From NCBI GenBank assembly GCA_021432635.1, contig MU270061.1, positions 239,216-303,215 of the forward strand: 64,000 nucleotides of DNA, given 5' to 3'. Positions 11,793 to 64,000 of this stretch are shown piece by piece. The position numbers were made by a program, and so were the translations under genes. The notes under the pieces are model-generated. The model saw only the letters and a program-made list of their open reading frames with translations, did no database searches and had not been told where the DNA came from. How positions within the stretch are numbered: position 1 is the first letter of the stretch; every line of letters begins with the position of its first letter. Source of the stretch: Thozetella sp. PMI_491 (Eukaryota; Ascomycota; Sordariomycetes; Chaetosphaeriales; Chaetosphaeriaceae).

Positions 11793-12848
11793 CTAGTCCC
11801 AATAGTATGACAAAATGTCAACGCCTACAAATTCATCCGCATACGCCTTCGCCTTCTCATCACCAGCTGCACCGGCGCATACTAACAGAGGCATAAAGTG
11901 GTCAGCACCACCCTTAGGATGCATATCATACGAGTTGGGAAAGTTGCGCCATTCGACCAGCTTCTTTTCCCTCTCATCCAGCTTCTCCTCGGACACGGCC
12001 TTGGTGAGGGCCTCGTTCCAGGCCTTAGACTTGGTGATAATGTCAAACCGAGGCTGGCCACTTAGCAACGCCATCATGTTGGGTAGATGGTGGAACGACG
12101 CGAAGCCAGATCCAACGATGGCTATGTTGGAGTCGCGCAGTTTTGCTAGGGCTCGGCCGAGTCTGATGTGCTCCGCCGGATCCTGGCTGCTCAGAATGGA
12201 GAGTTGAACAAGAGGTACGGTTGCCTCGGGATCGATGAGAAGAAAAGGGATGAACACGCCGTGATCCCAGCCTAGGAAGGTCAAAGTATCAGCGCATCAA
12301 ATACAGGCTAGTGAGTGCCGACACGTGAATTCATCAAACCTCTAGTAGGATTCAAGGTAGCGTTGAAGTTACTTGCGGCTAGAGCTTCCTTGACTTCAGC
12401 TGCTACCTCTGGGGACCCGGGCGCATTGTGCTGCAACTCATAGCTCTCAGGTGGGAATCCACCATAGTCATAGTACATATCGTGCGACTTCCCAGATGAG
12501 ATGGTCGGCTGGCGCTGTTGCCAATGCGCTGTCACGACGACGATGGCTCTTGGTGCGTCTGCGGTGCCCAGCTTCAGAATCTTAGGGACCCTTTCTTTAA
12601 GCGATTTGATCATGCTCTTATGCGTTGGATCTCCCAAGGCGGGCATAGGGCCTATTGTGGGTTAATAGAGATAGGCATAGCCGAAGGGGGGGGGCGGTCG
12701 GTTCCGAAGCCGTGTACTCACCTCCTCCATGGGAGATTGCAATCACTGCACCGCGCGTCATGTTGCTACCACGTAGAAAGGCAGCTATCATGTAAGAGGC
12801 GACGATAACGAGTGCGGTATGCTTTAATAGAGTGAGCAGACGTAACAT
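11793..12848 (-). CDS. Extradiol ring-cleavage dioxygenase, DODA/LigB class III family
   Basis: Member of the 4,5-DOPA-extradiol-dioxygenase-like family: metal-dependent, one-domain enzymes that open catechol-type rings. The ATG at 12848 begins with a hydrophobic N-terminal segment (LLTLLKHTALVIVASYMIAA), a signal anchor or secretion signal that is unusual for this normally cytosolic family. An intron across 12656-12720 joins ISHGGG to PMPALGDP, the family's first metal-ligand motif. VVVTAHW supplies the second His. A second intron before 12285 joins NPTRG to WDHGVFIPF, the third His motif. The rest (PLVQLSILSSQDPAEHIRLG, NIAIVGSGFASFHHLP) is standard to the stop at 11793. The second donor (GTTTGA) is weak but the join is in frame. 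It sits between the SGNH hydrolase and the MFS transporter, so aromatic catabolism or pigment chemistry is possible. Confidence 0.88.
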
Positions 12849-31400: not shown

Positions 31401-33941
31401 GCACAATTCTTTGCTGTCGGGCCGCTTGTATTGCCTTGCCAGTCCAACAATCCGCGTTGAGACTAGATTATCATCGTTGACGGCGACATCTTGCAACCCG
31501 CGCATGTCGTCCCCAAAATTGGACCACCACATGAACTCGTAGATGGCTGCATCATTGCTTATGGGAACACAGCAAGTTGTGCGGATAGTCTCATCAGCAG
31601 AAACGCTGCCGAGGCCCTTCCCGTGTCCTAAGGAAAATGACCAGAGCGAAATGGCAGCCTCTAATCGAGCGACATCAGTATTCCACTTGCTGTTTTTCCC
31701 ACTACGCATGTTGTGGAAAGCGACGAGATCATGTCCGACATTGACATCCCATTTGAAGCTGGCTGAAGTTGTGACATCACTCCAGCCGCTGTCCATCTCA
31801 AACAACTCTGCATCTGACAAAATGTCCATGACACCGGTGATTGCCTTGGCTAGACATTTGGCAGCTTCGCTGGCGGGAGTGTTCGAACTCTCCCAGTCGG
31901 GCGCCATGCGGGCCTGGAGAAACTGCCGGGTCTGAAGAACAAACTCAGCGCTGGGAAGTGTTTCACCATCGAAGTCGTCGCTGGCTACACTTCCCGGGAG
32001 ATTACTCGCTTGATTCTCCAGCTCGGCTTTTCCTGACGTCACAAGCCACTCAATAGGCGCAGATCTCGTTCCTTGTCTATACCACGGCGTTCTCTCTGTT
32101 CGTCGATGGAACAGATAAAAGAGTAATCGCTGTGGCCGCCGGGCTAGCGCCAGGAGAATGGCCACCTTTCTCGACCTAGCTCTATTTGCTGGCGCCGAGG
32201 GCTTGGCTGTCTTATCGTCGTCCGGTCCCCAAAGGGAAGAGGCTGTCTGGTAAAACCCTGGTCTTGTCGCAAGCCAGTCCAGCTCGTGATTTTCTGGCAA
32301 AGCCTCTGTCCGCGGCTGCTCGGCGAAATAGCGACGGACCCACGCCCGTATTCCGGTCATCACCAGGCAAAGGATGAGCTGCAAGACGGCGGCGAACCAG
32401 TGCATCTGACGGAACGCAATGAACTGGACGACATAGCCAACTATCGAGAGAAACGAGGCAACCACCGTCAGCAAGGCGATGGTAAAAGATCGAATGGTCA
32501 AGGGCTCGCGATTGGTGGTGTTATCGGTCCCCTCGAAATAGTCTTCGCGCTCGGAGAGGATTATGTCACGGCGTCCGTCTGCGGCAAAGATGGCATACGA
32601 CCCAAAGTGCTGGTCTCCGACGCGGCCCCGCTGTTGCAGCCAAAACAGACGCACCTCGCGCCCGTCATTCTCGGATCGGAGACGAAGACGGGTCTCTCGT
32701 GTGCCATCCTGTATGATAAAGGAGCAGAGATAAAGGCCTATGGTCAAGAGGCCCGTGCCGATCACGAGCAACGGAAAGGCAGCAGAGCTGACAGCCTGGC
32801 CGTTGTTGGTATATGCCCAGTAATAAGTGAGCAATCCATCGATCGCGAGAACTACCCCTTGGAGGAGTATAGAGAGCAAAGCGAACCATGCCAATTCGGT
32901 CACATTATGCGACACCTGATAATTGAGGGAGATGTTTGGCGATGAACCCAGGAGAGGCGCTTTCTTGGTCCGCCCAGCCCTTCTGTCGCTCGCAGCACCG
33001 ACAATGGTCTCGCTGCTCAGGGTATCAGCACCGTGCTCCAAATCATTACCAGCGGCTTCAGGAACAGATATATCTTTCTCCGATAGATGAGTTGTATCCT
33101 CGTCACCCTCGCGAGCATCCGTGTCGGACGTTTCTGGGACGCCAAATATCACCGGCCATTCATCTTTGGTGTATATGCCCAAGTCGACCTCTTCAATTGG
33201 CCAGTTGAACTCCGATTCTGAAGAGCCACTTTCGCTGGCGGACAAATCCGATCCGGAGTCGCCACTGGAGCTTTCCCCCGACCCAGACCCACCTTCGAAG
33301 GATGGATAGTCTGAGCCATCGTCCCCAGAATCTGTGGTGGTTGTTGAGGCTGTGCTGAACGACCGAACGCTGGACGCGTCCTCTGCGTCTCCATCGCTGT
33401 CATCTGCATTTTCCGGGCTTGCACTACCCTCGTCTTCACCATCCGATGAGGAATTGTGGGAAGAACTGGTCACCAGCGATTCACTGCTATTATCGGCACC
33501 ATCCTTAGACCTATGTCTCTTCAGCCTGCGTCCATCCTCGTCGAAGACAAGGGCCAAGCCAACGACGCGCGATTGCCCGACCACGCGGACAAGCGAGTTG
33601 CCGTTCCACATCTCGCAAACCTCGGCCGAAGTCGACGACATCAGCTCCTTCTCGACCTCGGATTTGGGCTCCCGGCCCCGGCCGATGAAGGCCTTGAGCC
33701 AGTGGGGCCCGCCGACTCGGATGGCGCATACTATGGCCGTAATAACTCCCAGGGGCCCGATGGCAAAGAGCAGGTTGTCAGTCCAGACCAGAGACTGGGA
33801 CATGAACGCCGTTGCCACACGCTCACCGAAGAGCGAGAGGAGGGGACCGAGGTCTGTGAAGAGGTTGTTGGACAGGTTTTCACCGTCGAACGTGCTCCAG
33901 AAGGGCCCATCCTCGGAGCTGGAGCCATTAGAGGAGTTCAT
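28408..33941 (-). CDS. Giant multi-pass membrane protein with C-terminal ankyrin repeats and acidic tail
   Basis: Over 1,800 residues, a type I recall as unnamed hypothetical proteins in Pezizomycotina. The first in-frame ATG is 33941. The open frame extends to a TTG near 34031, so an upstream exon is possible. In order: a membrane segment (LLFAIGPLGVITAIVCAIRV) with the conserved ELMSSTSAEVCEMWN and RVVGQSR motifs; a long Ser/Asp/Glu-rich disordered stretch (near 33490-33100); four or so helices (WFALLSILLQGVVLAIDGLL, FPLLVIGTGLLTIGLYLCSF, TIALLTVVASFLSIVGYVVQ); a large soluble middle; and about ten ankyrin repeats (GESPLHLAVRAGEKSMIDPL, GDTPLHLAARLDF, GLTPLHEACRAGN, GETALHLALKHRPPHQTLVR). 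The main exon ends MILDEG at 28788, but a GTGAGC donor, a TACTAAC branch site and a CTAG acceptor at about 28733 add an acidic Glu-rich exon stopping at 28408. A hydrophobic frame at 28172-28363 could be an alternative last exon. Function unknown; a membrane sensor or scaffold is possible. Confidence 0.8.
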
Positions 33942-34838
33942 GCTGGTAAAACCGCAACCATTGAAGGTTGAGACGCTAGCGACAAGTCTGCCCGATGAGA
34001 ACAGAGCGGCTGAGGATGCAAAGGCCTCCAAGCCACCCCACTTATAGCCTTGCTGAACATGGCCGCACGTGATCAGCTGGTCTCATCTCTGTCACTTCAG
34101 AGCGGGTGGTTCACTGGCCTCCCCGTCAGCTCCCAACCTACATGGTTTTTGGGGGGTTTTTTTATATAATCGTACTAGTAGGGAAAGCCAGGGAAATTTC
34201 GATGACCAGCGCGCTTAGATTTTGTTGACATAGTTAGCGTAGTCAGTAGGGTCGGCGAGGTCAGTATGGCCTCCGTAGGTCAGAGGTTGTCATGGATTGG
34301 ACATCGTTAGCTGGCGCCAAGCCTGCTGGCTATACGTTCTCCGAAGAGCACGCGATCCACGACGGCCATACGATAAAATTAAATATTCTGAAATTGGAAC
34401 ACAGAAATATTCACGTGCTGGGAAAAATGAATTCACAAAGGTTAACTGGTTTGTGGTGGTTAGTTTGTAGCTAATGCAGCCAACATAGTGGCATGGAGCA
34501 TGATTCCTCTCCGGAGAGGAAGTCAAATCGTTTGGCAGTAGTTAGTGGTTTTAGATCCACTTTCCGATGCTTCTCCCGAGAATTATTCTAATCTCAACCC
34601 CGAAACCTTCATCTCGATCCTACACAAACGCAGGTAACAATACACCGTTCCCAAACATAGCCAAACGCTAACTCGTCATGTAAAATCAGGATCATAGCAC
34701 CTATTCGTTTCCCGAGTCATTCCTCCCCAGACACAGCTGCTGCTGGGTTGCCAAGGTGGTTTCGAGATCTCCTCCTTTTCCTCCAAGACAGAAATTGTTC
34801 CGTGCCAAAAAGCCAGTCTAAGTGTGGTCTTTGAGTTA
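33942..34838. other. Intergenic
   Basis: Between the giant ankyrin gene and the retropepsin-like gene (both minus strand). Up to 90 bp next to 33941 may still be coding for the former. The remainder is short frames with a T-run near 34152-34167. Confidence 0.45.
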
Positions 34839-37236
34839 TTACTCGCTGTTTCTACGAAGCGGCAACAGTTGGATAGAAGCCCAGGGGATCCTCAGTCGTC
34901 GTGGGCGGTGTTTCGTGTTGTCAGGAAACGACAGCCTATCCGATGGCATATGCTCACTGAAGCCCCTCGTGGCCGGGGAATTGCTTTGCTGAGCAATACG
35001 GAGCCGACTTGTACGGCCTCCGGCGGTTGGTGCCGGCATTTGACTTCTCGGTTGTGTCTGTGCCCATCGCTGTCGAACCTCCGCTCTAGCTCTCTCCCAT
35101 TGCTCTTGTCGTCGCGCTTCAGCCGTTTGCGCCGCGGCCTTCTGGTTCTCGTTGAGGTTCGAAATCTCGTCTCGGATCCTGTCCCGGCGCGCCCACTCCC
35201 GGTTGATCATGGCGGGACTAAAAGCATCCGGGGATATGACTAGGAGCCGTCAGCACGCGCATATCAAGCATGGATGCGGCACTCTACTTACCATCCTCGA
35301 TGCTCTCGTCCTCCAGATGATCCAACGCGTCGCCAAAATCCGAGCCGAATACCCGAACTAGGCGGACGCCGCAGAGATCCAGACAGTCCAGGTCGTCGTC
35401 CTCCGCCAGGAATGCTTTGCATGTCGACAAAATATCCATCTCGAAGAGATAGTCCTTAGCTAAGACCACATCAACGCGAAGATTGTCGAGAACATAAAAG
35501 TCGCACTTGATCGAGGTGTTGCCGACAGACCAGGTAACGTCCCGGACGATGCCATCCGAGAGGGCGGTGGTCCCGTCCGCGAATTCGAACTCGGCCATGT
35601 CCTCGGGGTCCACATCTATTTTCAACCCAAGCTCCTGGGCATAGCTTTGCGATATGATCATGGCATCAGACCCGGTGTCTGGCAAGGCGGCGACCAAGTT
35701 GCTGTTGATATATCCGAACAGCCGCTGCTTTCCCTCCCCAAGGAGGTTCACACGCACCCTGCGAGGGACTGTGACGAAGTTTCGACGGATCCGATGGCGC
35801 CGCGTGGTCAGAGATTGTGTATACTCTAGGAACTTCCCACCAAGGACCAGGTCATACGCGCATCCCGGTAGAACGTAGCAGGTCAATTGCGTGACATCCT
35901 CTTCGTCAGCGAACTTCCATGGCACGTCAACGGAGCCCGGCGACGCAACTGTCTTGTCGTTTGCCAAGTTCACGAGTCGCTCAGTCCCCGTCTTGGCGTT
36001 GACGCCGAGCCTAGCCATCATTCCCGGAGAGATGAAGCAAGCATCTGCGCCAGAATCGGGAAAGGCGGCAACTGGGATTCCCATGAGTTCGCCGTGGATG
36101 GTCCACTGGCTCACCTTGTTGGGCAGTGTCCGAAGTTGACTGGGCTTGTTCTCCGCAAACCTCTCCTTGAGGCGTTCCAAGGGGGACTGGGCATTGTAGC
36201 GAAGGAAATCTTCCACGAGGTTTGGTGGACACTGCCGGATCTGGTTGTTGAGAGCATCCAACCTCGACAACTCCAAGACCTCTAGCAGTGACCGCAGACC
36301 GGCTGTTACCTGCTCGCTGTCATTGTCCTTGAATCCATCACTCAGCACCTCGCAAGTTCTATCGACCACACCGTCCCTCAGGCCGGTGCAATGTTGCTTC
36401 AGGATGTCTCTTATCCATGACGTCAGTGTCTCCAGGTCGGCAGTAGCCCTTCTCAGCTGGTGCGTAAGGAGTTTCACATCCAGGGCTGCGTGAACAGGCT
36501 CGGCGACTTCAGGGGGCACTATTTTCAGGAGAGTGTCCTTTGCCGACTGGAGCAGGTGCGGGAGGAGCCAGTCATCACATGTCGCAATGAACGCTTCTCG
36601 GTTCTCCATAAAATGACGCATTTGTCCCTGGAGTTTGGCCCAGAACTGGTCAGTGTATTCAATCTGGCTTCCGCTCTTGGCCGCTTCTGATTCTCGAAAA
36701 TCGGAACCGTTCTTAGACCAGTGGGTTTCGCAAACAGTAATTCCTATGATCGGCGCTGATTTGTCGGACCGCATAGTGGTGTCGGCGCCGGGATTTGGCT
36801 GAGCGTCTGTGTTGTTGTGGCCCCGCACGCTCTTAACTTCCCAGCTCACGTCCCAGTCCACATCGAAACCAGGATCCTGGTATCGCATATTGACGCGGCG
36901 GCACTCTTCTATAATCCTGCGAACCTTCTTTCGGCACTCCTGGGCCGCACGTTCGTAGCCGGCCGATAGCAACTCGGTCGAGCCGTCTGAGGTGGACGAT
37001 GGGGGCACGGGATCGAAGGGCAGCACACTGAGAGCGCGACTGAAGCGCTTGCTGCTGAATCGCTTCCAGATGCGGTCGATGGGCTTCTGGATAGGGGCCT
37101 TGGGTTTCTTCCTCTTCTTCTTGTTGGCCTCGACAGGGGCCGGGCCCGGGGCCGGAGCAGCAGGTACGACGGTGGTTGTGTGCCTGTGGCGCCGGTGTTC
37201 ATTGTCCGAGTCGGACGAGGACGAGTAGCCGAGCAT
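34839..37236 (-). CDS. Protein with two retropepsin-like aspartyl protease domains
   Basis: Two exons. The ATG at 37236 starts a Ser/Pro/Lys-rich N-terminus with a KKKRKKPKAP basic run. Residues about 75-120 (KKVRRIIEECRRVNMRYQDP then GFDVDWD) strongly resemble the N-terminal segment of fungal calpain-like (PalB-type) cysteine proteases, but no calpain catalytic motifs follow. A helical region (LLPHLLQSAKDTLLKIVPPE, LETLTSWIRDILKQH) leads to two retropepsin-like folds: AAFPDSGADACFIS near residue 389 and AALPDTGSDAMIIS near 515. Each is followed by hydrophobic strands typical of gag-asp-protease/RVP domains (YVLPGCAYDLVLGGKFL, YVLDNLRVDVVLAKDYL). The second has a perfect DTG triad, while the first has DSG. 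A GTAAGT donor near 35292 joins EDESIEDV to ISPDAFSPAM and an Arg/Gln-rich coiled-coil tail ending at 34839. No reverse transcriptase is nearby, so this is a host gene rather than an intact element. Confidence 0.75.
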
Positions 37237-37872
37237 GGCTTCGGGCTCCTTTAGTCTGAATACTGTAGGTTCTGTATCGAATCCTTCCGGTCATATGATT
37301 TTCTCAATGCCAAGGGACTGTCAAAAATTTTGAGCATCCTTTGTTGATGATAGTCGGCATGGATTGCAGACCGCCATGCCGAGGTTTGCTGTTGCTCAGC
37401 CGCAATCAGGCGCCCATCCACCGTATGAACTGTTGTTAGCACGCTACCAGGACAGGGCCAATGAGGTCTGTTCACAAACTAAAAATTCACTTTTGTTGGT
37501 CACCAACCCCGCCTGCGACGTGACGTCGGAATGGAATTGACTTGTATTTTCTGTCCGTGGCAGGCCCCGAAGATCCACCCTAGCCCCTCCCCTACCAGTG
37601 GTGTGAGATTTTTTGGGCAGTGAAATGGAGTTCTACCTTGCTGCGGACCCCTTGCACCAGGTTTGCGGCATTCGCTCACATACGTATTCTTGTCTCAACT
37701 CGCAAAGCGAGAGAATCGTTTCAAACCATGGCATCAACAAGAACAACACCATCGCCGCCATCTTGCTAGATCTCTGGGTGTGCCTTTTTCCTTCCCTGCA
37801 TCTCAAGCTGCCTCTCCTTAAAGGGAAAAAAAAAAAAAAAAAGATTGGCTAGTGGGAGCCCCCGTCAACACA
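37237..37872. promoter_or_regulatory. Divergent intergenic region with poly-A tract
   Basis: Shared upstream DNA of the retropepsin-like gene (minus) and the DUF6594 gene (plus). An A-run of about 17 lies at 37828-37844, close before the DUF6594 start, and CGTGACGTCGG near 37517 contains a TGACGTC element like bZIP/CRE sites. Function inferred only. Confidence 0.4.
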
Positions 37873-40624: not shown

Positions 40625-41129
40625 ATAGAAGTCTCACTAACCTGGTCGATGGCATGGTAGGCTCTTGCTAGCTCGTGTTGCGATGCAAGCCGGTCCGGTG
40701 GTCTTCGGCGAGGACTCGCCTGCGAATCGCGACGACTTTCTGGAGTAAAGTAACAGCTTCTTTGACCTGGTCGTTGGCCCGGTAGGCTCCTGTAAGCTTG
40801 TGCTACGATGCAAGCCGGTTGGGGCGGTCTTTAGCGAGGACTCCCTTATGAACCGTGACAACCTGCTTGAGTAGTGTAATGGCCTCTTTGGCCTGGCCGT
40901 TAGCTCAGTAGGCTATTGCGAGTACATGCTGCGATACATGCTGCGATACGAGCCGATTGTGGTGGTCTTTATTAAGACTCTTAACCTCAATGGCGACGAC
41001 TTGTTCAAGTTATATAACAGCCTCTTTGGCCTGGCCGTTGGCTTGGTAGGCTCCTGTGAGCTTATGCTGCGATGTAACCCGCAAGGGGTGGCCTTTAGTA
41101 AGAGTTTTAGCCTTAATAGCGACGACTTG
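40625..41129 (-). pseudogene. Broken TPR array (NLR-type), inverted
   Basis: The minus strand reads degenerate tetratricopeptide repeats of the type found at the C-terminus of fungal NB-ARC/TPR proteins: QVVAIKAKTLTKGHPLRVTS, QHKLTGAYQANGQAKEA, then EAITLLKQVVTVHKGVLAKD and EAVTLLQKVVAIRRRVLAED. Four units start at a spacing of 125, 126 and 138 nt. The 125 is a one-base deletion and the 138 includes a 12-bp duplication (ACATGCTGCGAT). Several in-frame stops, for example after QAKEAVI. No start and no N-terminal domain. It abuts plus-strand NLR sequence at 41129. Confidence 0.8.
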
Positions 41130-42391
41130 GCTTATCTCACTAGACCAGATCTCTCGTCATAACCCCCCTACACGAGATTGCCTATTCTTCATGGCTAGTG
41201 TCTACCGGAAAGATATTCTACTAGATATTCTACCAGCCACCTCCTCATCTGAAAAACAAACAGCAGTAAACCTTCTGGACGAGTACGCGCTCATCACCAG
41301 ACGGCCCGCTGACTCGGCTGTCGAACTTCATCGGCTGGTACACCTCGCAATAAGGAGCTATCTTAAAGAGCAGGATATACAGCACAAATGGAGCCAAAAA
41401 GCAGTTATAAGCTTGGTTGAAAACTTTCTAAGCGCCAGCCATCAGAATAGGAGCAAGTGGAGGGGATTACTGCCGCATGCGAAGTATGTTCTGGCGTACA
41501 GCCTTCCTAACCAAAAAAAACGAATCTACGGAAATCCTGGCAAAGAAATACGCCAATGCATTACGTGAAGACGGGCGGTATGATGAATCTGAGAAGCTGC
41601 TTATACAGATGATGGAGATGTTTCAGAACGAACTTGGGGTGGACCATCCAGATACACTGACAAGTATGGGCAACCTAGCAGTGACTTATAGGAACCAGGG
41701 CCGATGGGAAGAGGCTGAGAAGCTACAGGTGCAGGTGGTAGAGACTTTTCAAAACCAGCTTGGGGTGGACCATCTAGATATACTGACAAGTATGGACAAC
41801 CTAGCGTTAACCTATAGGGAACAAGGTCGATGGGAAGAGGCTGAGAAGCTGCAGGTGCAGGCGGTAGAGGCTTTTCAAAATACGCTTGGGGTGGACCATC
41901 CAGATACACTGACAAGTATGGCCAACCTAGCATTGACCTATAGGAGCCAGGGCCGATGGGAAGAGGCTGAGAAGCTGCAGGTGCAGGCGGTAGAGGCTTT
42001 TCAAAATACGCTTGGGGTGGACCATCCAGATACACTGACAAGTATGGCCAACCTAGCATTGACCTATAGGAGCCAGGGCCGATGGGAAGAGGCTGAGAAG
42101 CTGCAGGTGCAGGTGTTAGAGGCTTTGCAAAATAAGCTTGGGGTGAACCATCCGAATACACTAACAACCATGCATAACCTAGCATATACTTGGCAAAATC
42201 TAGGCCGCTATGCCGATGCGCTGGCCTTGATGGAACGTTGTCTGCTGGCGATGCAGCGCGTCTTAGGCCCAAATCACCCCTTCACGCTGTCCACTGCGAG
42301 GGATGTTGATGCATGGGGTGAAATGAGAAAGGCTCTTTGTGACTGGGGACTCTCTGCTCTCACTGAAAGAAGTGCTGGCTGTAGTTGGTAG
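41130..42391 (+). pseudogene. NB-ARC/TPR (NLR-type) protein, C-terminal part, frameshifted
   Basis: This is the C-terminal half of a STAND/NLR-type protein. The region starts abruptly in the post-NB-ARC segment (TTWLISLDQISRHNPPTRDC, FFMASVYRKDILLDILP, RRPADSAVELHRLVHLAIRS), with no nucleotide-binding domain upstream. It continues to LLPHAKYVLAYSLPNQKK. There, at an A8 run near 41513-41520, the frame shifts and the reading continues as ESTEILAKKYANALREDGRY and five to six kinesin-light-chain-type TPRs (WEEAEKLQVQ, LGVDHPDTLTSM, LALTYRSQGR), ending at 42391. Two TPR units are identical over 126 nt. Missing N-terminus plus frameshift argue for a pseudogene, unless the A-run count is a sequencing error. 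Confidence 0.8.
41702..42205 (+). repeat. 126-bp tandem TPR-coding repeats
   Basis: Four in-phase units of 126 nt (42 codons) starting at 41702, 41828, 41954 and 42080. Units 2 and 3 (41828-41953 and 41954-42079) are identical base for base by direct comparison. Units 1 and 4 differ at scattered positions. Such perfect identity points to very recent duplication or gene conversion, as seen in high-identity repeat domains of fungal NLR proteins. Confidence 0.93.
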
Positions 42392-51404: not shown

Positions 51405-53458
51405 TCACGCTTCTATCTTCTCTGGCATCCAGGTGCTGAATGCCATCCCCTTGGGCACCTGCTTCCACTGGCCCGTCGTGGGATCTAGCAGTTTCTCGCA
51501 CTCCTCTACTTCCTTCCGGATGATCTCGACCTTGCCCTCGGACCGGGGCTTGATCACCGCGGGGTAGTCGGCAGGCTGGACGGTGATGCCGCCAACTAGA
51601 TTCTCGATGTCATACTGGATGGGGTTCCCGCTTGCATCCTTGGGTGTCGAGAAGTGAAAGGCCCAGATGAAGCGTGAAATGCCCAGGAAAAGCGACCTCT
51701 CGGCGATGTGGATGCCCTGGCAGAGCCGACGTCCGGCACCAAAGACGAAATTATCGCGCTTGGTGGTGTCGCCGACGGCAGACTGGTAAAGGGTGGTGTG
51801 ATCGTCCTTGAATCGGTCAGGGTTGAACACCCGCGGGTTGGGGGACCGCTCTGGGTCCATGTGAATTGCCCTACGCCAGGCGAGTCAATACCCCTTACTG
51901 TATTGCTATTATACATTGAGGTGAGTGGGAGACTTACCAGACGTTGTTGATGATCGTCGACCCCTCGGGGATTCGGTAGCCCATATAGTTGTCTTCCTTG
52001 AGCACCGAGTGCGGCACGCCGAGGATGACCGTTGGCATCCACCGGAGACTCTCTTTTATGCAGCAGCGGATGTAAGGGAGGTTTTCGTAGTCTTCAATGA
52101 CTGGCAAGCGGTCAGGCCCGACGACGCGATCGATCTCTTCCTGGGCCTTCCTTTGGATCTCCGGCCAGACCAGCAAGGCCAGGATGAAGCCGTAGAGGGT
52201 CGATGCGGTGGTGTCTGAGCCAGCCTCGAGCAGCGAGCCGCTTATATACCCGGCGGCATCGTCTGAGAACTTCTCGGTCACCTGAGCGCGATAAATGTCG
52301 TTGCAAAAGCAGGGCTGGTGAATAAGGGTGTCAGCTGGTGAGCTCTGGCTACCTTTGGCTGGCTACAGAGAGACTGGAGGATTGGGGCACATACGAGGCC
52401 AGTTCCAGAGTCAAGCGCATTCTTGGATCTCATCCAGTGGCCGACATATAGCTTCTTCTCCACCTCGTGCAGTTTCTTTGCGTACCGAACATTTGGCGAG
52501 ATGACGGACGGGAGGGATTGCAATATCGGGTACAAATCCGCCAGCTGTGCGCTGGAGCTTCCCGAAAGCTCGCCCCATTTCTCGAAGCACTGCAGCGTAT
52601 TAGGCGGGCTGTCCCGGGAGTGGGAGTGGGAGTGGGAATGGGACAGGGGCGACCATGGACTTACCGAGAAGAGCTGTAAGAGGTTTGGGTCTCTGTTGCT
52701 GACACAACGATACCCGAATATCATCTGTGTGGATAACGAATAGGTAAAGCGGCGAATGTGAAACAGCATGTCGTCCGGACTATCTAGTAGCCCCGATAGC
52801 AGAATCTTGTTCTCTAGATCCTGATAAGGCACGTAGGTCACAGCAGCCTTGATGTTCAAAATGTTGTGAATCATGCGGTGGATCATGCGCCAGTTGTCGC
52901 CGTATCTCTGTTTTTGTTTTGCTCTTAGGAAACCATCCGGCCAGCTTTGCATCCAAAAGTGTCAGGTACTCACCATCACGACCAACCTGAGATTGCCGCT
53001 GGCAATTCTCTGGCCGATGAACATGTCCGGGCGGTCCGAGTACATGCCGCTGCGCTTGTCTAGGAGATCCTTGACTGCGACGTCGGAGGAAAGCACAATC
53101 ATGGTTTTCGACCCGAGCATTAGAGAGTATACAGGTCTAGACACGGGCACCCGTTAGATATGGCCGTGCGATCTCGAGGTCACGGGAGAGATGCCATACC
53201 CATATTGCTTTGCCCATTTCTGAAACTGCACGTGGGGCCTTTTGGTAGGCATCTGCCTTGGTCTTTAGTTGCCCGCTCGAGAATCTATCGCTGATGGGAA
53301 AGACAAACAAGATGGAGGTTTCCGATTAATGGCAGAGTCGGGGGGCCCGGCGGCAGGTCTGAGGCCCGACTGCCAATCTTGTAGACCTTTGCAACTAGCA
53401 ACACGAGACCGGAAGCCAAGAGCACAAGGCCAAATCGGTAATCGGATAAAATAATCAT
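51405..53458 (-). CDS. Cytochrome P450 monooxygenase
   Basis: ER-anchored haem-thiolate monooxygenase. The ATG at 53458 begins with a membrane anchor (FGLVLLASGLVLLVAKVYKI) and the proline hinge LPPGPPTLPLIGNLH. Further exons carry PVYSLMLGSKTMIVLSSDVA, LLDKRSGMYSDRPDMFIG, YGDNWRMIHRMIHNILN, the I-helix AGSDTTASTLYGF, the K-helix ESLRW, the PERF region PRVFNPDRFKDD and the haem loop FGAGRRLCQGIHIAE (axial Cys in FxxGxRxCxG). Six or so introns, one with a GGGAGT microrepeat near 52617. All key motifs are present and it stops at 51405. Style is that of the fungal O-methylsterigmatocystin-oxidoreductase-like P450s, a very broad group. It is transcribed away from E1-beta, about 0.9 kb apart, and could belong to the same cluster. 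Confidence 0.9.
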
Positions 53459-54381: not shown

Positions 54382-55698
54382 ATGACGCTCTGTCGGCCTT
54401 TTCCTCGCTCACTCCGATCCATTGACGGTTTGGCAGCACAGTTTCGTCGCGCCTATGCAACCCAGGTTAGTACCGCATCTACGCGCCGATTGAATGTGCC
54501 AATCGACTTTGGCGCTACCGCCCTGCTGCACCACCACCGGAGTAGCCTAGCAACAGCCCCCGAGATACCCAGCGATGGACCTTCATCGCGACTTAACCTG
54601 TGTCAGTCGGTAAATTCTGCGCTGCGCACGGCATTGAGCTCGTCCGAAAAGGTGTTATGCTTTGGCGAAGATGTCGCTTTCGGCGGCGTATTCCGGTGCA
54701 CTCTTGGCTTACAGGAGGAGTTTGGCAAGGAGAGGGTCTTCAACACGCCGCTCACAGAGCAGGGCATTGTCGGCGTCGCCATTGGGGCAGCCGCCGAGGG
54801 TATGAAGCCCGTGGTCGAGATCCAATTTGCCGATTACGTCTTCCCGGCCTTCGATCAGATCGTCAACGAGGCCTGCAAATTCCGCTACCGGGAGGGGACG
54901 TCAGGCGGCAATGCCGGCGGCCTCGTGATCCGGACGCCCTGCGGCGGTGTTGGGCACGGCGCCCTGTGAGTGGCAAGGCGTGGAATGCGTTTTAGGGAGG
55001 GAGGCATCGAGGACGCTGACGAGTGCTTAGATACCACACACAGTCGCCCGAGGCGCTCTTCTGTCACGTACCAGGAGTCCGAGTCGTCATGCCACGATCC
55101 CCGTCCCAAGCAAAGGGCCTCCTGCTATCTGCGATTATGGATTGTCAAGACCCTGTCATATTCATGGAGCCTAAGATTCTCTACCGCGCCGCGGTAGAGG
55201 AAGTCCCCGACCAAGCCTTTACTCTGCCTTTAGGAAAGGCGGAGATTGTAAAGCCCGGTAACGACTTGACGATCGTATCTTACGGCCGGCCGCTCTATAC
55301 CTGCTTAGCGGCAATCGAGGCAGCGGAGAAGGACCTCTCAGGCCTAAGAGTGGAGCTCATTGACCTTCGAACGATTTATCCGTGGGACCGCCAGACGATT
55401 CTGGACAGCGTCAAGAGGACGGGCAGAGCCATCGTGGTCCATGAGAGCATGGTCAACTTTGGAGTCGGGGCAGAAATTGCTGCTACTATACAAGAGCACA
55501 GCTTCTTTAGCATGAAAGCTCCCACCAAAAGGATAGCTGGCTGGACAACCCACACAGGCTTGGCGTATGAGAAATACATTTTGCCAGATGTCACCCGTAA
55601 GTGCCTCGATGCGCTTTCCTTGCTGCCACAGGCCGTGGGATGTTGACCAACTTCGAATAGGAATTTACGACGGTATCCTCAAATCCATGGAGTATTAG
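54382..55698 (+). CDS. BCKDHB: Branched-chain 2-oxoacid dehydrogenase E1 component, beta subunit
   Basis: Mitochondrial matrix. With E1-alpha it forms the thiamine-diphosphate decarboxylase of the BCKDH complex, acting on the 2-oxoacids of Leu, Ile and Val. The ATG at 54382 gives an Arg-rich, acid-free mitochondrial presequence ([20 protein letters not shown]). The transketolase pyrimidine-like domain has [54 protein letters not shown] and [12 protein letters not shown]. An intron near 54967-55029 leads to [20 protein letters not shown], and the C-terminal domain has [16 protein letters not shown] and [17 protein letters not shown]. The frame seems to end at 55646, but a GTAAGT donor after DVTR and an AATAG acceptor at about 55661 add [11 protein letters not shown], the usual C-terminus, stopping at 55698. 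FRCTxGL with GHG favours BCKDH over pyruvate dehydrogenase E1-beta. Confidence 0.92.
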
Positions 55699-56063
55699 AG
55701 ATTAGATTTGATGTAACGGGAATAAATTTTGGGTACATGCTGGTGTATGTTTAGACCTAGATAGCATATTATGGCAATGCCATCATCTCAACCGCTGGAC
55801 TCGGGGACTTCCAAAACCTGCTAAATATGCTTGAGACTTGCATTTTGGTGCATCTGTATCAAATCAATGTGATAAGCTAGCGAGATTGGGCATCCCCTCA
55901 GGAAATTGCACAAGAACTATTTGCAGTAGTTGTTCCTCCTATGCAAAACATATCAGCTCAAGGTTGGGAACATTTACATCATGCTATTAAAGGATAGGCC
56001 GGTTCAGCTTCTATAATATATTTCCTCGTCACACACTAATCTAGCGAATAGGTCCCTCTCCAA
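55699..56063. other. Convergent 3' ends of E1-beta and E1-alpha
   Basis: Short AT-rich spacer between the converging E1-beta and E1-alpha genes. No gene seen. Confidence 0.5.
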
Positions 56064-57692
56064 CTACAGTCCCCCCAGTCCTCCCTTGTGTTGGTTTATG
56101 TCGTATTCTGCCGGATATTTCTGCATGATCTCCCTAAGCTCCTGCCGCTGGGACTCTACCTCCTCCGTCAACTCTGCATAAACATCCGTAAATATCTCCT
56201 TCAATGCCGGTTTCTTCTCTTTTTCCGCTAGGCTCAGTTCTCGAATAACATCCTTTCGAATTTGCGCTCGCGTTTGGACATCCAATTCCTCGCTCCACGC
56301 ATTCTTGGCCTCCAACCATTGGCGCAGCCTTGATATGGGATTGCGCTGAGCGCTATTCCAGTAGGAAACTTCGTTGTGGCCCCGGTACGCGGTGCTGTCA
56401 TCGCTAGTGCTGTGATGGGAGATGCGGTAGCTCATGAACTCGAGTAGGATGGGGCGGCCACCATCCTCGAGGGCTTTCCGTCTGGCCGCCTTCGTGGCCT
56501 CGTAGACAGCAAAGATATCTGTGCCGTCAACCCGGAGCGCCTCAATGCCGTAACCTGCTCCTCGGCTCGCAATCCCGTCGCCTCGGTACTGTTCAGAGGC
56601 GGGCGTCGAGATGGCGTACCCATTGTTACGGCAGCAGAATATGACCGGGCTCTGTATCATTGCTGCCATATTCAGTGCCCCGTGAAAATCGCCCTCGCTG
56701 GCCGCACCTTCGCCGAAGTAAGCCACGGCCACACCAGGTTCCACAGTACTATCCAGTGCTTCCATCTTCAAAGCATACCCAGCGCCGACCGCGTGAGGTA
56801 TTTGCGTGCCAAGCGTGGAGGCAACCGCGTGCTGAAGCGAGGTTAGCCAGGACCGAGAAATACGGGATGAGGTTTCTTGGGTGCTGGCAGCTCACCACTC
56901 CAACTTTCTCCCTCCCAGTGTAGTGGACCGGCATGTTGCGCCCTTTGCCCGGGTCATTGCAGTTGGCGGCCAACTGACTCATGAAATCCTTCAGTTCAAA
57001 CCCTCGTTGTAAGAAGACGCCATGCTCGCGGTACTGGCAGGTAATAACATCCTTCTTTGCGAGCGCCGCGGCCGACCCGACCATTATCGCTTCCTCACCA
57101 GCCGACACCTTTCGAATCCCATGATTAGCCTCGTTGGTCTAAAAGCGAACCCCAAAGTGTAGTACCATATAGAAGCTGACCCGACCATGTCTCTGCGCAT
57201 CGTACATAATGCCGTCCATAATGTTCACTGGTAGGACAAAGTCAGATCCGTTGGCGCGTGTGAAGAAGAAACAGCTCGTATAACCCACCGGTAAGCATAT
57301 TTTTATACCAAGTTAGCACGTCCTCCACCGGGATATCTGAAGTAATCTGTGTAGGGTCTTCGATCATGTTGTTGGCATTCATGATACTGTATGTTGGCAT
57401 AGGCGTTGTATTCGATGGCGCCTCCCACTCCATCTTCGAACTGAAGAGGCTGTTTACGGCCCCAGGAAAACGTGGTCTAACGTGTTGATTATTTGTTAGC
57501 CACCCAGTTGGATTACAGGTTCCCGTACATGTTCACATGTTTATAGATAGATTATACATACGCAGAGACATGACTTCGTGCGGTTGAACTTGATAGCTGC
57601 CGTGCTAAGCCATGCTTAAGTGAGCATTCTAGAGGGATACGGAAGGGCCGGCTACTAGAGCTTTGGGCCAACCTCAGTGGGAGACGATTCAT
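56064..57692 (-). CDS. BCKDHA: Branched-chain 2-oxoacid dehydrogenase E1 component, alpha subunit
   Basis: Mitochondrial partner of E1-beta, binding thiamine diphosphate. The first true ATG is 57692, giving a presequence (MNRLPLRLAQSSSSRPFRIP). Six or so exons: RPRFPGAVNSLFSSKMEW, TPMPTYSIMNANNMIED, VNIMDGIMYDAQRHG, VSAGEEAIMVGSAAALAKKD, CQYREHGVFLQRGFELKDFM, GKGRNMPVHYTG, then the last exon with the ThDP motif GEGAASEGDFHGALNMAA through NNGYAISTP. The loop HHSTSDDSTAYR is the phosphorylation-site loop of BCKDH E1-alpha, which clearly separates it from pyruvate dehydrogenase E1-alpha. The C-terminus ends at 56064. It converges on E1-beta and is divergent from E2, so all three genes are contiguous. 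Complete and probably functional. Confidence 0.92.
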
Positions 57693-58063
57693 ATTAGCAG
57701 AACATAAAGTTTGACTGAAAACAGCGTTTGCTCGTAATGGAAGTCCCAAAGCAGCTTGACGAGAGCCACACCAAGAATACGGAAGAATGAGAAGGAAGGA
57801 AGGAAAGGGGGACAGTAAGCTACATTACACAGCTGTTACAGTATAGCTAGCTATGCTCGGCTCGAGACGGTAGGATCCAAGCTCGCTGCGGCTACCCTCG
57901 GTTGTTCATCTCGGCAGGCCGGGCTAGCTCGGCCTCGGGATGGGAACCTACAGGGGACTGCGGTACTCGCCAGGGCTCTACGGGAGCTATGTAATTACCA
58001 GCCCTATTCCACAACATGTTTCCCGACCTTGTGCTGCCGCCATAGATTATTGGTTATTTGAAA
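57693..58063. promoter_or_regulatory. Shared divergent promoter, E1-alpha / E2
   Basis: About 370 bp separates the two start codons, which are transcribed away from each other. Such a short bidirectional region would give joint expression of two subunits needed in fixed ratio. It contains a purine-rich GGAAGG run near 57790-57810 on the plus strand. No specific factor site can be assigned. Confidence 0.55.
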
Positions 58064-59761
58064 ATGCATTCGTTTCAACAGAAAGGCCGCGTGCTGCTGA
58101 CCAAGAGGGCCGGTCTCTTGCGTTATGTCGGGCCCCCGATGTCTGGATTACCTGCCAAGTATAATCAACAACGGTCATTCGGAACAAGTCTCAGCCACTG
58201 GGCCGTCAAGCCGTATTTGTTGGCGGATATTGGGGAAGGTTAGCTTTTGCAGTGAACAATGTATGCCTGGGTTGTAATGCTGACACTGATAGGAATCACG
58301 GAGTGCCAGATTATATCGTGGTCGGTCAAACCTGGTGACGAAGTTCAGCAATTCGACCCAATTTGTGAGGTCCAGTCGGATAAAGCTTCTGTCGAGGTAA
58401 ATGACGATTAGAAACTGCTCTTCTCTGCGCGCGGTACCGAATACTTTATGCCCTTCATGCAACTAACTTAGTATCTTCAAGATCACCTCGCGATATGACG
58501 GCAAGATCACAGCGCTGCATCACGATGCCGGGGACATGGCGCAGGTGGGCTCGGTATGTGTGGTTCGCTCATCCAGAGAGATTTTACAGTCCGTTCTGAT
58601 CGCAGACAGCCCCTGTTGGATATTGATGTGACCAACGACGAAGACGACGAGCCCAGCCAGCCTACCGGAGCTGTTGATCAAGAGATCACGCACGATGTCT
58701 CCTTGGTAGAAACGACGAGCAAAAGCTCACAGCTATCGAACCGAACCCCAGATATCTCCCGGATCGGCTCCGGAAGAGTCGAGACCGAAGACGACACCGC
58801 TCTCGCAAGTCCGAAAAATTCCGGCTTGGTTTCGCCAGCAGTCAGGCACCTCTTGAAAGAAAACAATATTGATCTTGCTAACATCGAAGGCACGGGCAAG
58901 GATGGGCGAGTCCTGAAGGAAGATGCCATTAGATACATCCAAGCTCAGGCGTTGCCGACAGATCCTGGGATTAGCATCCCCGACAGTGGCTTAGAGGGAC
59001 AAGACGGACAAGACCATCGAACTGCACTATCCCCCATCCAGGACCAGATGTTTCAAACCATGACCAGGTCATTGACCATTCCGCACTTTCTCTACACGCA
59101 TTCCGTGGATTTCACCTCGGTGGAGGGGCTCCGTGCGCGACTAGCAAGCGACCGCTCGATCACGTCGTTCCTTCAGCACGGCTCTGACGCCACCCCCAAA
59201 TTGACTCCACTTCCATTCATGATGAAGGCGTTGTCGCAAGCTCTCTCGGCTTTCCCCACTCTGAATTCAGTCCTCGACACCGAGGGCGACTCGGGCAAGC
59301 CCCAGCTTATCCTGAAGTCAGCACATAACATCGGTCTGGCTGTGGACACGCCCCGGGGACTCTTGGTCCCCGTAATCCGGAACGTCCAGAACCATTCCGT
59401 CCTATCTCTGGCTGCGGAGATCTCTCGCGTCTGCGCACTGGCTAAGGCTGGAAAACTGGCTCCTCAGGACATGAAAGGGTACACGATCGTGGTCTCTAAC
59501 ATCGGGAGCATCGGCGGCCACGTCGTGGCACCCGTCATTCTATCACCTACGACGGTAATTGTGGCGGTTGGCAAGATCGAGCCAGTGCCCGTATTCCAGC
59601 AGGACGAGAGTGGGAACGAACGGATTGTTAAGAGGCATCGGGGGGTCTTAAGCTGGAGCGCCGACCACCGCGTCCATGACGGCGCCACTGTCGCCCGTTG
59701 TGCACAACATGTTGGCTCATGGCTGGAGAATATTGGAGAGCTGGCCGTGGCGTTGAAGTAG
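58064..59761 (+). CDS. DBT: Branched-chain 2-oxoacid dehydrogenase E2 component (dihydrolipoyl acyltransferase)
   Basis: Core of the BCKDH complex. It moves the branched acyl group from E1 to CoA via a lipoyl arm, in the mitochondrial matrix. The ATG at 58064 gives a basic presequence. Four exons: exon 1 ends [11 protein letters not shown]. An intron at 58239-58292 joins to [20 protein letters not shown]. The lipoyl Lys is in SDKASVE, with an intron right after it, then [20 protein letters not shown], and a last intron before PLLDIDV. A variable linker is followed by the E1/E3-binding domain ([37 protein letters not shown]). The catalytic domain has [58 protein letters not shown] and the active-site [13 protein letters not shown]. 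The linker and some core positions diverge from typical housekeeping DBT. Confidence 0.92.
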
Positions 59762-60090: not shown

Positions 60091-60620
60091 TCAGGAAATA
60101 GTGGCTATGCATACCGCGAAGACCTCCATAGCCTTGATTCGAGGGTTTTCGGGGCTGCTAGGCGACGAATCCAGTTCGATATGGCAACTGAAGGGCGAGA
60201 CGATCGTTTTCCCACTATAGAGCCCCATTTCTACTGTGCCGATGAGCGATAGCTCTTGTGGTTCCTGGTTGCTCGCAAATGCCTTCAGGATATGGTGCTT
60301 CCGGGACTTGACAACAGCCCACGCATTGTCTCTGCTCTTTGAGATTTCTAGTGCATTGGAAGAGTAAGTATCACGAGCGGTGACAGAAGAACAAGATCAC
60401 GATGCTGGTACGAGGCTGGAGTGGAAGCACCTGCGGAGCCACGGAAAGTAGCATGGGCCGAGACAAGAACGGCATCACTGCTAAAGACGTCAGCCGCCAT
60501 TCGAGCCCCTGCATCGGACTCCCGAGAGTCTGCTAGTTCGTAAAAAGTCGCTATGAGGTTTTTGACATTTTCCCCCATCCTCTCCGACAACCAGGCAGTG
60601 CTTTCAATTGGATATCTCAT
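60091..60620 (-). CDS. SnoaL-like / NTF2-fold protein
   Basis: Small protein, about 150 residues in two exons. Exon 1 starts at the ATG at 60620 (MRYPIESTAWLSERMGENVK, then NLIATFYELADSRESDAGAR and VFSSDAVLVSAHATFRGS). A GTGCTT donor at about 60431 and a CACTAG acceptor at about 60353 join GSA to EISKSRDNAWAVVKSRKHHI, then LKAFASNQEPQELSLIGTVE, with the stop at 60091. The A.FYxLADs....g..xAdxFt.da....a...f.G..eI..sR...W pattern is that of fungal SnoaL-like proteins, an NTF2 fold. Members include polyketide cyclases and isomerases but many have no known activity. The position beside the BCKDH genes suggests a role with an acyl or ketide intermediate. That is inference only. Confidence 0.75.
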
Positions 60621-61104: not shown

Positions 61105-61704
61105 ATGTCTCCATCTACGGTTCCAGACTTTGATGCCCCAGGCGAAAAGGTGCTGGCGCCTTCATCGCTGGCGCACGTCGTGCTTCGCACGGCAAACCTC
61201 GAGGCAATGCAGGACTTCTACGTCAAGTTCCTAGGCGGCAGCGTCGTGTACAGCAACGGCATGATCTCGTTCATCACGTACGACGAGGAACACCACCGGA
61301 TAGCGCTGATCGGGATCCCAACCACGGGCGCCAAGGTGCCGACCAGCTGCGGCTTGGAGCACATCGCCTTCGCCTTCGGCAGCCTGAGCGACCTGCTGCT
61401 GGCGTACCGGCAGCGGCGGGCCCGCGGCATCGAGCCGATCTGGTGCGTCAATCACGGCCCCACCACTAGCATCTACTACAAGGACCCGGACGGCAACCAG
61501 CTCGAGACGCAGGTTGACAACTTCGACTCGGCCGACGCAGCTACGGCCTTCATGATGAGCCGCGAGTTCGGCGAGAACCCCATCGGCACCGACTTCAACG
61601 CCGAGGACTTCATCGCCGCTCTCCGCCGCGGCGAGGACGAGGGCGCCCTCAAGAAGCGCAAAGAGATTGGGCCGCGTGGCATACCGGACCTGGCAAACAT
61701 GTAA
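61105..61704 (+). CDS. Glyoxalase/extradiol-dioxygenase-fold (VOC) protein
   Basis: Single exon of 199 residues. The vicinal-oxygen-chelate fold is shown by two beta-alpha-beta halves. The first has LAHVVLRTANLEAMQDFYVK (first metal His), FLGGSVVYSNGMISFITYDE and HRIALIGIP. The second has CGLEHIAFAFGSLSDLLLAY (second His), GPTTSIYYKDPDGNQLETQV (YYKDPDGN, with the metal Glu in LET). A 2-His-1-Glu site is therefore intact. The C-terminal tail (GTDFNAEDFIAALRRGEDEG) is typical of fungal members annotated as biphenyl-2,3-diol dioxygenase-like or glyoxalase family. The real reaction is not known for most of them, and ring cleavage, isomerisation and lyase chemistry are all possible. Transcribed divergently from the SnoaL-like gene, so probably co-expressed. 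Confidence 0.87.
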   Translation: MSPSTVPDFDAPGEKVLAPSSLAHVVLRTANLEAMQDFYVKFLGGSVVYSNGMISFITYDEEHHRIALIGIPTTGAKVPTSCGLEHIAFAFGSLSDLLLAYRQRRARGIEPIWCVNHGPTTSIYYKDPDGNQLETQVDNFDSADAATAFMMSREFGENPIGTDFNAEDFIAALRRGEDEGALKKRKEIGPRGIPDLANM

Positions 61705-62174: not shown

Positions 62175-64000
62175 CTACGAAACAGTGGGCTCTGTCGATG
62201 CCCACGCGCCTAGCCATCCCTGGCCCGAGATCTCGCTCGAGGGAGAGGCGAGGAGACCCATCACGTCGGTGTAGAGCGGGTGGTGGGACGAGACGTCATC
62301 GGCGGCTGCAATGTCTGCTTCTCGATGGGCATCCGCCATTACCTGCTCGAGGCTGGCGATAGATTCCGCCGGCAGGCTCGAGAGGATGAAGCTGGACTCA
62401 TCTCGCAAGACTTGGCTTGACATAAGGCCGGGGTCCCGGTTGGCCCCTTTCTGTAGGTCACATGAGGCCACGTCCAGCGACATGGGCTCGCTCATGGCCG
62501 CGTCTTCGGGGCCGCTACGCAGTAGGCTCACAGGGCTGGCCCCGTCTAGATTTGTAGAATGGGACGCGGAGCGCGCCGCAGAGTGGAATCGCTCCGCCAC
62601 ACGGCGCGCTTGGCGGACAAACTCGGTTGTCTTGGTGAAGGCGGCCTCGCCCGAGGTGACGTACTCCACACGCCCGAAGAAGCCGACGACCACCTCCATG
62701 AGCGCGATGTCGTTTTGGGTCGACTCGTCGCACGGGTTGGTGACCACGTGCACAAAAATGGTGGTGAGGGCGGTCATCGGGTAGTAGAAACCCAGCCTGC
62801 AGCGCAAGTAGTCCAGTCAGATCGAATTCAACTCATGCGTAAGCTTCTACACAAGGAGGGGCTAGATACTCACCATCCAGGAGTGAAACTCTCAACATCA
62901 AAGTGCTTCGTGAGCAGAGCTATGGACCTGGCGGCCTCGATGTGCGCTGCGGCCATCGTCGGGGTGAGGAGCCGGTGGGTGGCGTCCTCGCCTTGCGTGA
63001 ACAGGGGCGTGAATCGGCGATATGCGGAGCATAGTACGTAGCAGTAAGACGTGTGCAAGACAAGCAACTGGATCCGGGATAGGCCCCTGGTCTCCGTGAT
63101 GCGTCCCAGAGGTTTCCCCGGTCGTATCTCTGGTGGGATAGACTGTTGCCAAGCGTCAAGGTCCCGCAGGATCCTGTCCAAGGTGCCCGATAGCTGGGCC
63201 GAGGGGGAGCTCAGCGCGGTCGCCGAATAGAGCCGGCGCGAGATCTCACCGCATATGCGCGCCAGCTTGGTGAAGCATAGAAAGAAGTCGAACCTCTCGG
63301 TAGTCTCCGAAATCGCCCGGCTAAAGCCCTGGTCGCAGCCGACCTGCACGTCACGGGGGAAGCTGCAGCTGATCTCATCATCGTGGATGGCTGAAGGCCT
63401 GCCGCACCGCACGGCGACCGTCTTGTCCAGGCAGTAGATGACCCAGAAGACACGGTTCCTCTCCCGCTTCTCCCGCTCGCTGAGGTTCCACGCCGGATAC
63501 GGCTGGCGGTTCAGCGCGAGGCTCTGGGCCAGGCGGGAGGCGATCGAGGAAAGCGTGTACTCGAGCCTCTGGGGGGTCGACAGCCCCTGGGCGAAGACGG
63601 TCATGACGGCCACGGCCTGCACGGCCATCAGGTCGGTCGCCCCGTGGATTATCTTAGACTCGTATGATAGCGCGTTCTGGAAGAAGCCCCACGACTCGCG
63701 CCCAGACTTCTGGAAGGCGCTCGCTGTCTCGTCCGAGAGGGCGGCGCGGCAGCCCGACGCGAGGACCGCATTTAGGAGGGCCTTCCACGAGTGCCGCTTG
63801 CAGTCCTGGCTGATGCCCAGCGTCTCGAGCTGCGACTCAAACTCGACGCGGTCCAGGATCGGAAAGATGGTCTGCACGGTCGAGAAGTACGCCTCTACAT
63901 ACCGCGTGACCTGGGACGGCAGGATCGGCTTCGGGCCGGACGCTTCCCCGCCGGGGGTCAGTGGGGCGCCCGGTGGGATGCACTTGGGCTGCCTGAGGTG
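62175..64000 (-). CDS. Fungal-specific transcription factor (Zn2Cys6 type), N-terminus beyond the window
   Basis: Partial gene, open at the right edge. The visible part is the fungal_trans domain and C-terminus: QVTRYVEAYFSTVQTIFPIL (helix ahead of the domain), SALNAVLASGC-like text, LAQSLALNRQPYPAWNLSER, NRVFWVIYCLDKTVAVRCGR, PSAIHDDEISCSFP, all classic for Zn2Cys6 regulators of the amyR/xlnR-like broad class. An intron near 62810-62868 joins SFTPG to the last exon (FYYPMTALTTIFVHVVTNPC, ALMEVVVGFFGRVEY), with a Ser-rich tail ending at 62175. The zinc cluster itself must lie past 64000, so DNA binding is inferred. It borders the BCKDH/P450/VOC group and is a candidate pathway regulator. Confidence 0.85.

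Follow-up and report, generated by a model that had tools for sequence, protein, structure and literature searches.

A second, clustered set of predicted branched-chain 2-oxoacid dehydrogenase genes in the fungus Thozetella sp. PMI_491

The DNA analysed here, termed the window, is a stretch of 64,000 nucleotides from Thozetella sp. PMI_491 (contig C47:239216-303215; the genome comprises 72.3 Mb in 157 contigs). At positions 54382-59761 the window contains intact, intron-bearing genes for the E1-beta (+), E1-alpha (-) and E2 (+) subunits of a branched-chain 2-oxoacid dehydrogenase (BCKDH), which is usually regarded as one core mitochondrial complex. Judged by similarity, the Thozetella genome holds a dispersed BCKDH set on contigs C8, C38 and C51 in addition to the clustered one on C47; since that separate set lies on three other contigs, the set in the window is a second one. 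The three genes probably encode an accessory mitochondrial BCKDH isoenzyme, composed of E1 alpha/beta and E2, with a shared E3 and a catabolic role.

Gene models and predicted products

An earlier note on this DNA had described adjacent E1-beta, E1-alpha and E2 genes, with a divergent E1-alpha/E2 promoter of 370 bp and with E1-beta and E1-alpha converging. All three genes are intact where that note placed them, the start codons of E1-alpha and E2 are separated by 371 bp, and the stop codons of E1-beta and E1-alpha lie 365 bp apart. The locus comprises the following features.

54382..55698, + strand: predicted BCKDH E1-beta paralogue; join(54382..54965,55031..55596,55661..55698), 3 exons, 395 aa
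55699..56063, no strand: converging intergenic gap, 365 bp, E1-beta stop to E1-alpha stop
56064..57692, - strand: predicted BCKDH E1-alpha paralogue; exons 57692-57562, 57476-57289, 57227-57166, 57108-56896 and 56831-56064; 453 aa
57693..58063, no strand: divergent promoter region, 371 bp between the E1-alpha ATG and the E2 ATG
58064..59761, + strand: predicted BCKDH E2 paralogue; join(58064..58238,58293..58396,58482..58553,58610..59761), 4 exons, 500 aa, presequence-like start

All introns of the three models are of the GT-AG type. The E1-beta model is identical at every residue to NCBI protein P0001. The upstream exon of E1-alpha (57692-57562) is presequence-like: it starts with basic residues and contains an FPGA motif, which is likewise found ahead of the C38 E1-alpha of the same genome. 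The NCBI record for E2, P0241 (456 aa), is without the N-terminus and the end of the lipoyl domain, both of which are kept in the present model. In P0241 the conserved lipoyl-domain end PLLDIDV seems to be lost to splicing; a GT-AG intron at 58554-58609 would retain it.

Pfam domains are found in all three products: Transket_pyr (E-value 1.1e-33) and Transketolase_C (5e-35) in E1-beta, E1_dh (5.3e-61) in E1-alpha, and lipoyl (9.4e-20), E3-binding (5.9e-14) and acyltransferase (7e-65) domains in E2. Among Protein Data Bank (PDB) entries, those used for the E1 comparison being presumably human, E1-alpha scores 381.6 bits with BCKDH (1dtw_A) and 130.6 bits with mitochondrial pyruvate dehydrogenase (PDH; 3exf_A), and E1-beta scores 381.8 bits with BCKDH (1dtw_B) and 190.5 bits with PDH E1-beta (1ni4_B). 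Both E1 subunits are, by these scores, nearer to BCKDH than to PDH. The full-length E2 scores higher with a PDH E2 (3duf_I, 211.5 bits) than with the BCKDH E2 core (2ihw_A, 149.4 bits), only the core domain having been solved for BCKDH E2. NCBIfam returned only matches below the cut-offs, with PDH-type models on top, in a run in which E1-alpha was represented by the orthologue P0132 instead of the window protein.

The phospho-loop of E1-alpha is kept (HHSTSDDSTAYR in the window versus HHSTSDDSSAYR in 1dtw_A), as are the lipoyl lysine of E2 (EVQSDKA) and its acyltransferase HxxxDG site, which reads HRVHDG in the window and HRVLDG in at least 33 of the 49 cluster-type E2 sequences described below. 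The retention of the lipoyl lysine, the HxxxDG site, the E3-binding domain and the E1 motifs suggests that the complex works and relies on the common E3. No E3 gene turned up in the window, where no search aimed at E3 was made. The N-termini of all three proteins are basic and acid-poor, with 7 K/R versus 0-2 D/E per 45 residues, and look like mitochondrial presequences. In domain make-up, catalytic motifs, phospho-loop and the best PDB matches of both E1 subunits (1dtw), the set resembles mitochondrial BCKDH (BCKDHA, BCKDHB and DBT); unlike it, the window holds a second, physically clustered fungal set beside a dispersed set of the same genome.

Paralogy within the genome and across fungi

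The contigs of the genome were searched with PF00198, PF00676 and PF02779, all counts being lower bounds. Acyltransferase genes (PF00198) occur in at least four places; E1-alpha-type genes (PF00676) lie on C38, C47 and C13, plus C7, with one weak match on C63; and E1-beta-type genes were detected by PF02779 among transketolase-like genes. Spliced alignment to the window proteins picked out C8 for E1-beta (score 1165, 63% identical, 222/355 aligned positions), C38 for E1-alpha (999, 59%, 192/327) and C51 for E2 (888, 46%, 214/468). Scores elsewhere are much lower (C65, 473; C13, 307; C123, 193; C94, 127): by their motifs and low scores, the genes on C65, C13 and C123 look like PDH and those on C7 and C94 like 2-oxoglutarate dehydrogenase. 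The E2 of the window had been described as diverged, and at 46% identity to the C51 copy it is; it is not degenerate, the lipoyl lysine and HxxxDG being kept.

The paralogue suspected in the earlier note is thereby borne out, the genome search having located a separate BCKDH set, so that the window genes are not the only ones in the genome. That the window carries the plain housekeeping BCKDH locus, as its encoding of every dedicated subunit might suggest, is rejected and refuted in this genome by the complete separate set on C8, C38 and C51, and this reading deserves next to no credence. The statement that BCKDH genes are usually dispersed fits the Thozetella housekeeping set and the printed locus tags of three fungi, the comparison being confined to these. 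The published tags suggest dispersal in Aspergillus terreus (ATEG_03862, 06635, 09087), and E1 and E2 tags are widely separated in Penicillium chrysogenum and Acremonium chrysogenum.

Protein searches listed 120 matches per subunit, from which all trees and pair counts were drawn. The E1-beta query was the 399-aa first model with its last intron unspliced, and the E1-alpha query was the last exon only (235 aa), which may favour short models. Rows for quick trees were selected manually according to whether the organism was named, to length and to spread (65 of the 120 E1-beta, 60 of the 120 E2 and 28 of the 120 E1-alpha matches); more careful trees used 39 E1-beta and 38 E2 matches, and a human-rooted E1-beta tree 27. 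Fungal classes were assigned from genus names, according to what we take to be the membership of these genera.

In the phylogenetic check proposed in the earlier note, the E1-beta and E2 of the window belong to clades with good support that are distinct from fungal BCKDH of the housekeeping type. In the quick trees the clade containing the window protein, termed the cluster clade, comprises 43 of 66 E1-beta rows and 49 of 61 E2 rows, with housekeeping-type sequences outside and a Shimodaira–Hasegawa-like approximate likelihood ratio test (SH-aLRT) support of 99 in both. In the careful trees it comprises 30 of 40 E1-beta rows (support 100/100) and 34 of 40 E2 rows (100/99). The cluster clades include Sordariomycetes, Leotiomycetes, Eurotiomycetes and Dothideomycetes, and on these trees the window E1-beta and E2 belong to an old paralogous clade. 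The E1-alpha tree (30 rows), in which C38 is the sole outside row, informs little beyond the relations among cluster-type copies.

Simple redundancy, in which a duplicated housekeeping complex has been kept by chance or dosage, agrees with the conserved catalytic motifs and with the small number of columns that distinguish the two types: five in E1-beta (at 85% conservation, leaving aside P0023, P0060 and P0071, three long-branch members of the 43-row clade) and two in E2 (at 80% in each type, housekeeping E2 being represented by 33 matches, of which 11 were placed in the quick tree and 22 classed by organism name). It is very unlikely in view of an old clade that spans several classes and bears signs of linkage and transfer, and a recent duplication of the genome's own copies is rejected, approximately unbiased (AU) tests excluding their joining with the window proteins (p-AU 0.0007 for E1-beta and 4.9e-5 for E2).

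A. nanangensis and P. tannophilum each have one E1-beta in the cluster clade and one in the housekeeping-type clade, and A. unguis and D. macrodidyma each have two copies within the cluster clade. The contigs bearing the latter copies measure 1527162 and 1428173 bases in A. unguis and 2130175 and 3629350 bases in D. macrodidyma; in A. unguis, each cluster-type E1-beta lies on a contig of the same size as that of a cluster-type E2.

The human-rooted E1-beta tree places the cluster clade among the housekeeping copies of Eurotiomycetes, at a distance from C8, and disfavours its grouping with C8 (p-AU 0.016). It is a hint that the Sordariomycete sets, including that of the window, may derive from outside the Sordariomycetes, in a tree that has a single Sordariomycete copy of the housekeeping type and a long branch to the outgroup. 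A bacterial origin finds no support: the names of organisms given with the 120 listed E1-beta matches read as fungal, and the genes have introns. When bacterial and archaeal genomes were scanned with an alignment of E1-alpha, one locus turned up, 28% identical; the test is weak, its two peptide patterns being fungus-like.

Linkage and transfer in other fungi

E1-beta and E2 matches on contigs of identical size in bases were counted as pairs. Among the matches listed there are 27 such pairs, that of the window and 26 others, with A. unguis counted twice. Both members fall in the quick-tree cluster clades in 19 of the 26 further pairs; the remaining seven are Fusarium solani-complex matches close to placed ones, not both of them in a tree. 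In 13 of the 26 pairs serial locus tags can be read for both genes, and in 12 of these 13 they differ by 1 or 2 (Zalerion, five Fusarium/Neocosmospora, P. angulare, P. nucicola, A. nanangensis, Pseudogymnoascus, T. virens and Scytalidium). The middle tag in Pseudogymnoascus and A. nanangensis is E1-alpha, so that the tags run E1-beta, E1-alpha, E2, like the genes of the window. These are signs that the three-gene set stays linked in other fungi.

For both E1-beta and E2, the copies of P. lividum and P. tannophilum are nested within the Sordariomycete group and separated from those of other Eurotiales. A constraint that unites this Penicillium pair with other Eurotiales costs 54.9 (E1-beta) and 109.5 (E2) log units and is rejected by the AU test (p-AU 1.6e-4 and 4.8e-8, respectively). 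The placement of the pair in both trees indicates that the gene set has moved between fungi. In the quick E2 tree, F. poae, F. oxysporum and F. proliferatum group with Dendryphion (98), a grouping recovered in the careful E2 tree (91/93) with F. poae and F. proliferatum only. A further AU test on E2 had the Sordariomycete copies form a single clade that excluded the Penicillium pair (p-AU 8e-65); the pair itself confounds this test, which was left unused.

In being linked and patchy, the set is like the FDB1/FDB2 (Fusarium) and fumonisin clusters, which are reported to be transferred or shared between fungal lineages; unlike in those, the linked unit in the window consists of three subunits of one 2-oxoacid dehydrogenase complex. 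A literature search on BCKDH and clusters met no clustered second fungal BCKDH in titles or the starts of abstracts among the papers listed, and is weak evidence of novelty, subscription papers lying mostly outside its coverage.

Proposed role and neighbouring genes

The predicted complex would be imported into mitochondria and borrow the common E3. Branched or other short 2-oxo acids would be oxidatively decarboxylated to acyl-CoA, with the acyl group made by E1 and passed to CoA on the lipoyl arm of E2, whose lipoyl group would be reoxidised by E3. Linkage and the common E1-alpha/E2 promoter may keep the subunits co-expressed, under conditions unlike those of the housekeeping complex, and the set would act as an inducible catabolic isoenzyme.

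Several points weigh against an accessory isoenzyme of this kind. The sampling of housekeeping copies is thin, with one Sordariomycete copy per gene, Eurotiomycete copies for E1-beta only, Dothideomycete and chytrid copies for E2 only, and C38 and human as the only E1-alpha housekeeping-type sequences. The groups compared in the AU tests were named after inspection of the quick trees. Linkage elsewhere is read from tags and shared contig sizes, not from DNA, and covers cluster-type copies; the tags of F. solani-melongenae are 138 apart (LCI18_004783 and LCI18_004921). No other branched-chain catabolic gene was found among those window open reading frames (ORFs) that were scanned, which are not all of them.

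The set is flanked by the following genes, from a Pfam run on chosen ORFs, the ORF lists being free of those running off the window ends.

51405..53458, - strand: cytochrome P450; PF00067 in 2/3 ORFs scanned, haem motif FGAGRRLCQG at 51743-51714, exons incompletely modelled
60091..60620, - strand: small NTF2/SnoaL-like protein (weak, E 0.097, below cut-off); hand-made two-exon model, candidate member
61105..61704, + strand: VOC-superfamily (glyoxalase/extradiol-like) protein; PF00903, candidate member
62175..64000, - strand: fungal-specific transcription factor; PF04082 in 62873-63877, appears to extend beyond the window, candidate member

The P450 gene, divergent from E1-beta, is likewise a candidate cluster member. 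Of the neighbours named in the earlier note, the P450 (PF00067), VOC (PF00903) and regulator (PF04082) genes are recovered, and the SnoaL-like one is supported only weakly. The same note had suggested a branched-chain catabolic or specialised-product cluster; its second set is supported, and the cluster readings are conjectural, with no such catabolic gene in the scanned ORFs and no ORF of the size of a polyketide synthase (PKS) or nonribosomal peptide synthetase (NRPS) listed in the window, where the sole listed ORF above 700 aa encodes an ankyrin protein. The 39 kb fetched past position 64000 consist of N only.

These neighbours bear on a dedicated precursor supply, in which the complex would provide isobutyryl-, isovaleryl- or 2-methylbutyryl-CoA for a nearby PKS, NRPS or acyltransferase. 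Like biosynthetic clusters, the set is linked, patchy and apparently transferred between fungi, and P450, VOC and regulator genes adjoin it. A precedent is the second bkd cluster (bkdFGH) of Streptomyces avermitilis, where an additional clustered BCKDH likewise accompanies another one in a single organism; that cluster is bacterial and is reported to be tied to a product, avermectin, whereas the window has eukaryotic genes with introns in divergent and convergent order. Precursor supply is nonetheless quite unlikely, given the PKS/NRPS-sized ORF missing from the window list and presequence-like N-termini that would separate the acyl-CoA from the compartment of a cytosolic synthase.

E1-alpha differs from C38 and human in 14 columns, five of them within one segment (human SSPLATQ versus ASTLGTQ) that we take to be binding thiamine diphosphate. 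Among the 120 listed E1-alpha matches, many of them fragments, STLGTQ occurs in 47, SSPLATQ in none and a looser regional pattern in 52. Some of the differing states recur in T. thermophilus and bacterial PDH E1-alpha. Drawn against two housekeeping-type sequences, these differences are no more than a lead.

The same columns would suit accessory catabolism of a 2-oxo acid that does not come from branched-chain amino acids, such as a ring-cleavage product, with the P450 and VOC genes acting upstream. The VOC protein is distantly like extradiol dioxygenases (catechol 2,3-dioxygenase model, 7.9e-6, 25.4 bits versus a cut-off of 320.2), and a LigB-type protein is encoded at 11.8 kb. In A. terreus, the dispersed BCKDH genes are reported to show high expression, with upregulation on salicylate; the authors of that work call the role of BCKDH with 4-hydroxy-2-oxopentanoate unclear. 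We consider this pathway unlikely: the P450 and VOC genes are no more than candidate members of the set, the VOC protein has matches to glyoxalase and FosA models as well, and some E1-alpha states recur in T. thermophilus and bacterial PDH E1-alpha.

A wider version, in which a widespread, horizontally moving three-gene set of the Pezizomycotina has an E1 active site shifted to a 2-oxo acid other than those of Leu, Ile and Val, an entire mitochondrial multi-enzyme complex having thus turned into accessory genome content for an undescribed pathway, is doubtful. A shifted E1 specificity was set aside as the leading explanation on the two grounds already given, the pair of housekeeping sequences and the states found in T. 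thermophilus and bacterial PDH.

If the accessory mitochondrial isoenzyme is real, the presence of a linked, patchy, apparently transferred second BCKDH in several classes of moulds would imply that a large core complex is able to act as accessory genome content. The gene set offers a clear target for deletion and for assay of an undescribed short-chain acyl-CoA pathway, and the similarity-based mapping of BCKDH genes in fungal metabolic models may conflate two complexes.

An Rfam scan of the window gave no match at gathering thresholds. Further upstream, the window holds two more regulators and MFS, SDR, LigB, GDSL lipase, chitin synthase, ankyrin, TPR and WSC genes. The LigB-type extradiol dioxygenase match lies in ORF 11793-12296 (-), about 42 kb from the BCKDH set. 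ORF 28788-34082 (-) encodes 1764 aa with ankyrin repeats in the final third, and ORF 35284-37290 (-) a Tcp11 domain fused with retropepsin-like aspartyl protease domains (Asp_protease_2, gag-asp_proteas). A 126-bp tandem repeat at 41633-42185 (+), with 4.4 copies and a 90% match, encodes TPR repeats in ORF 41432-42391 (TPR_12, 1.4e-89), and a weaker 126-bp array is present at 40640-40914.

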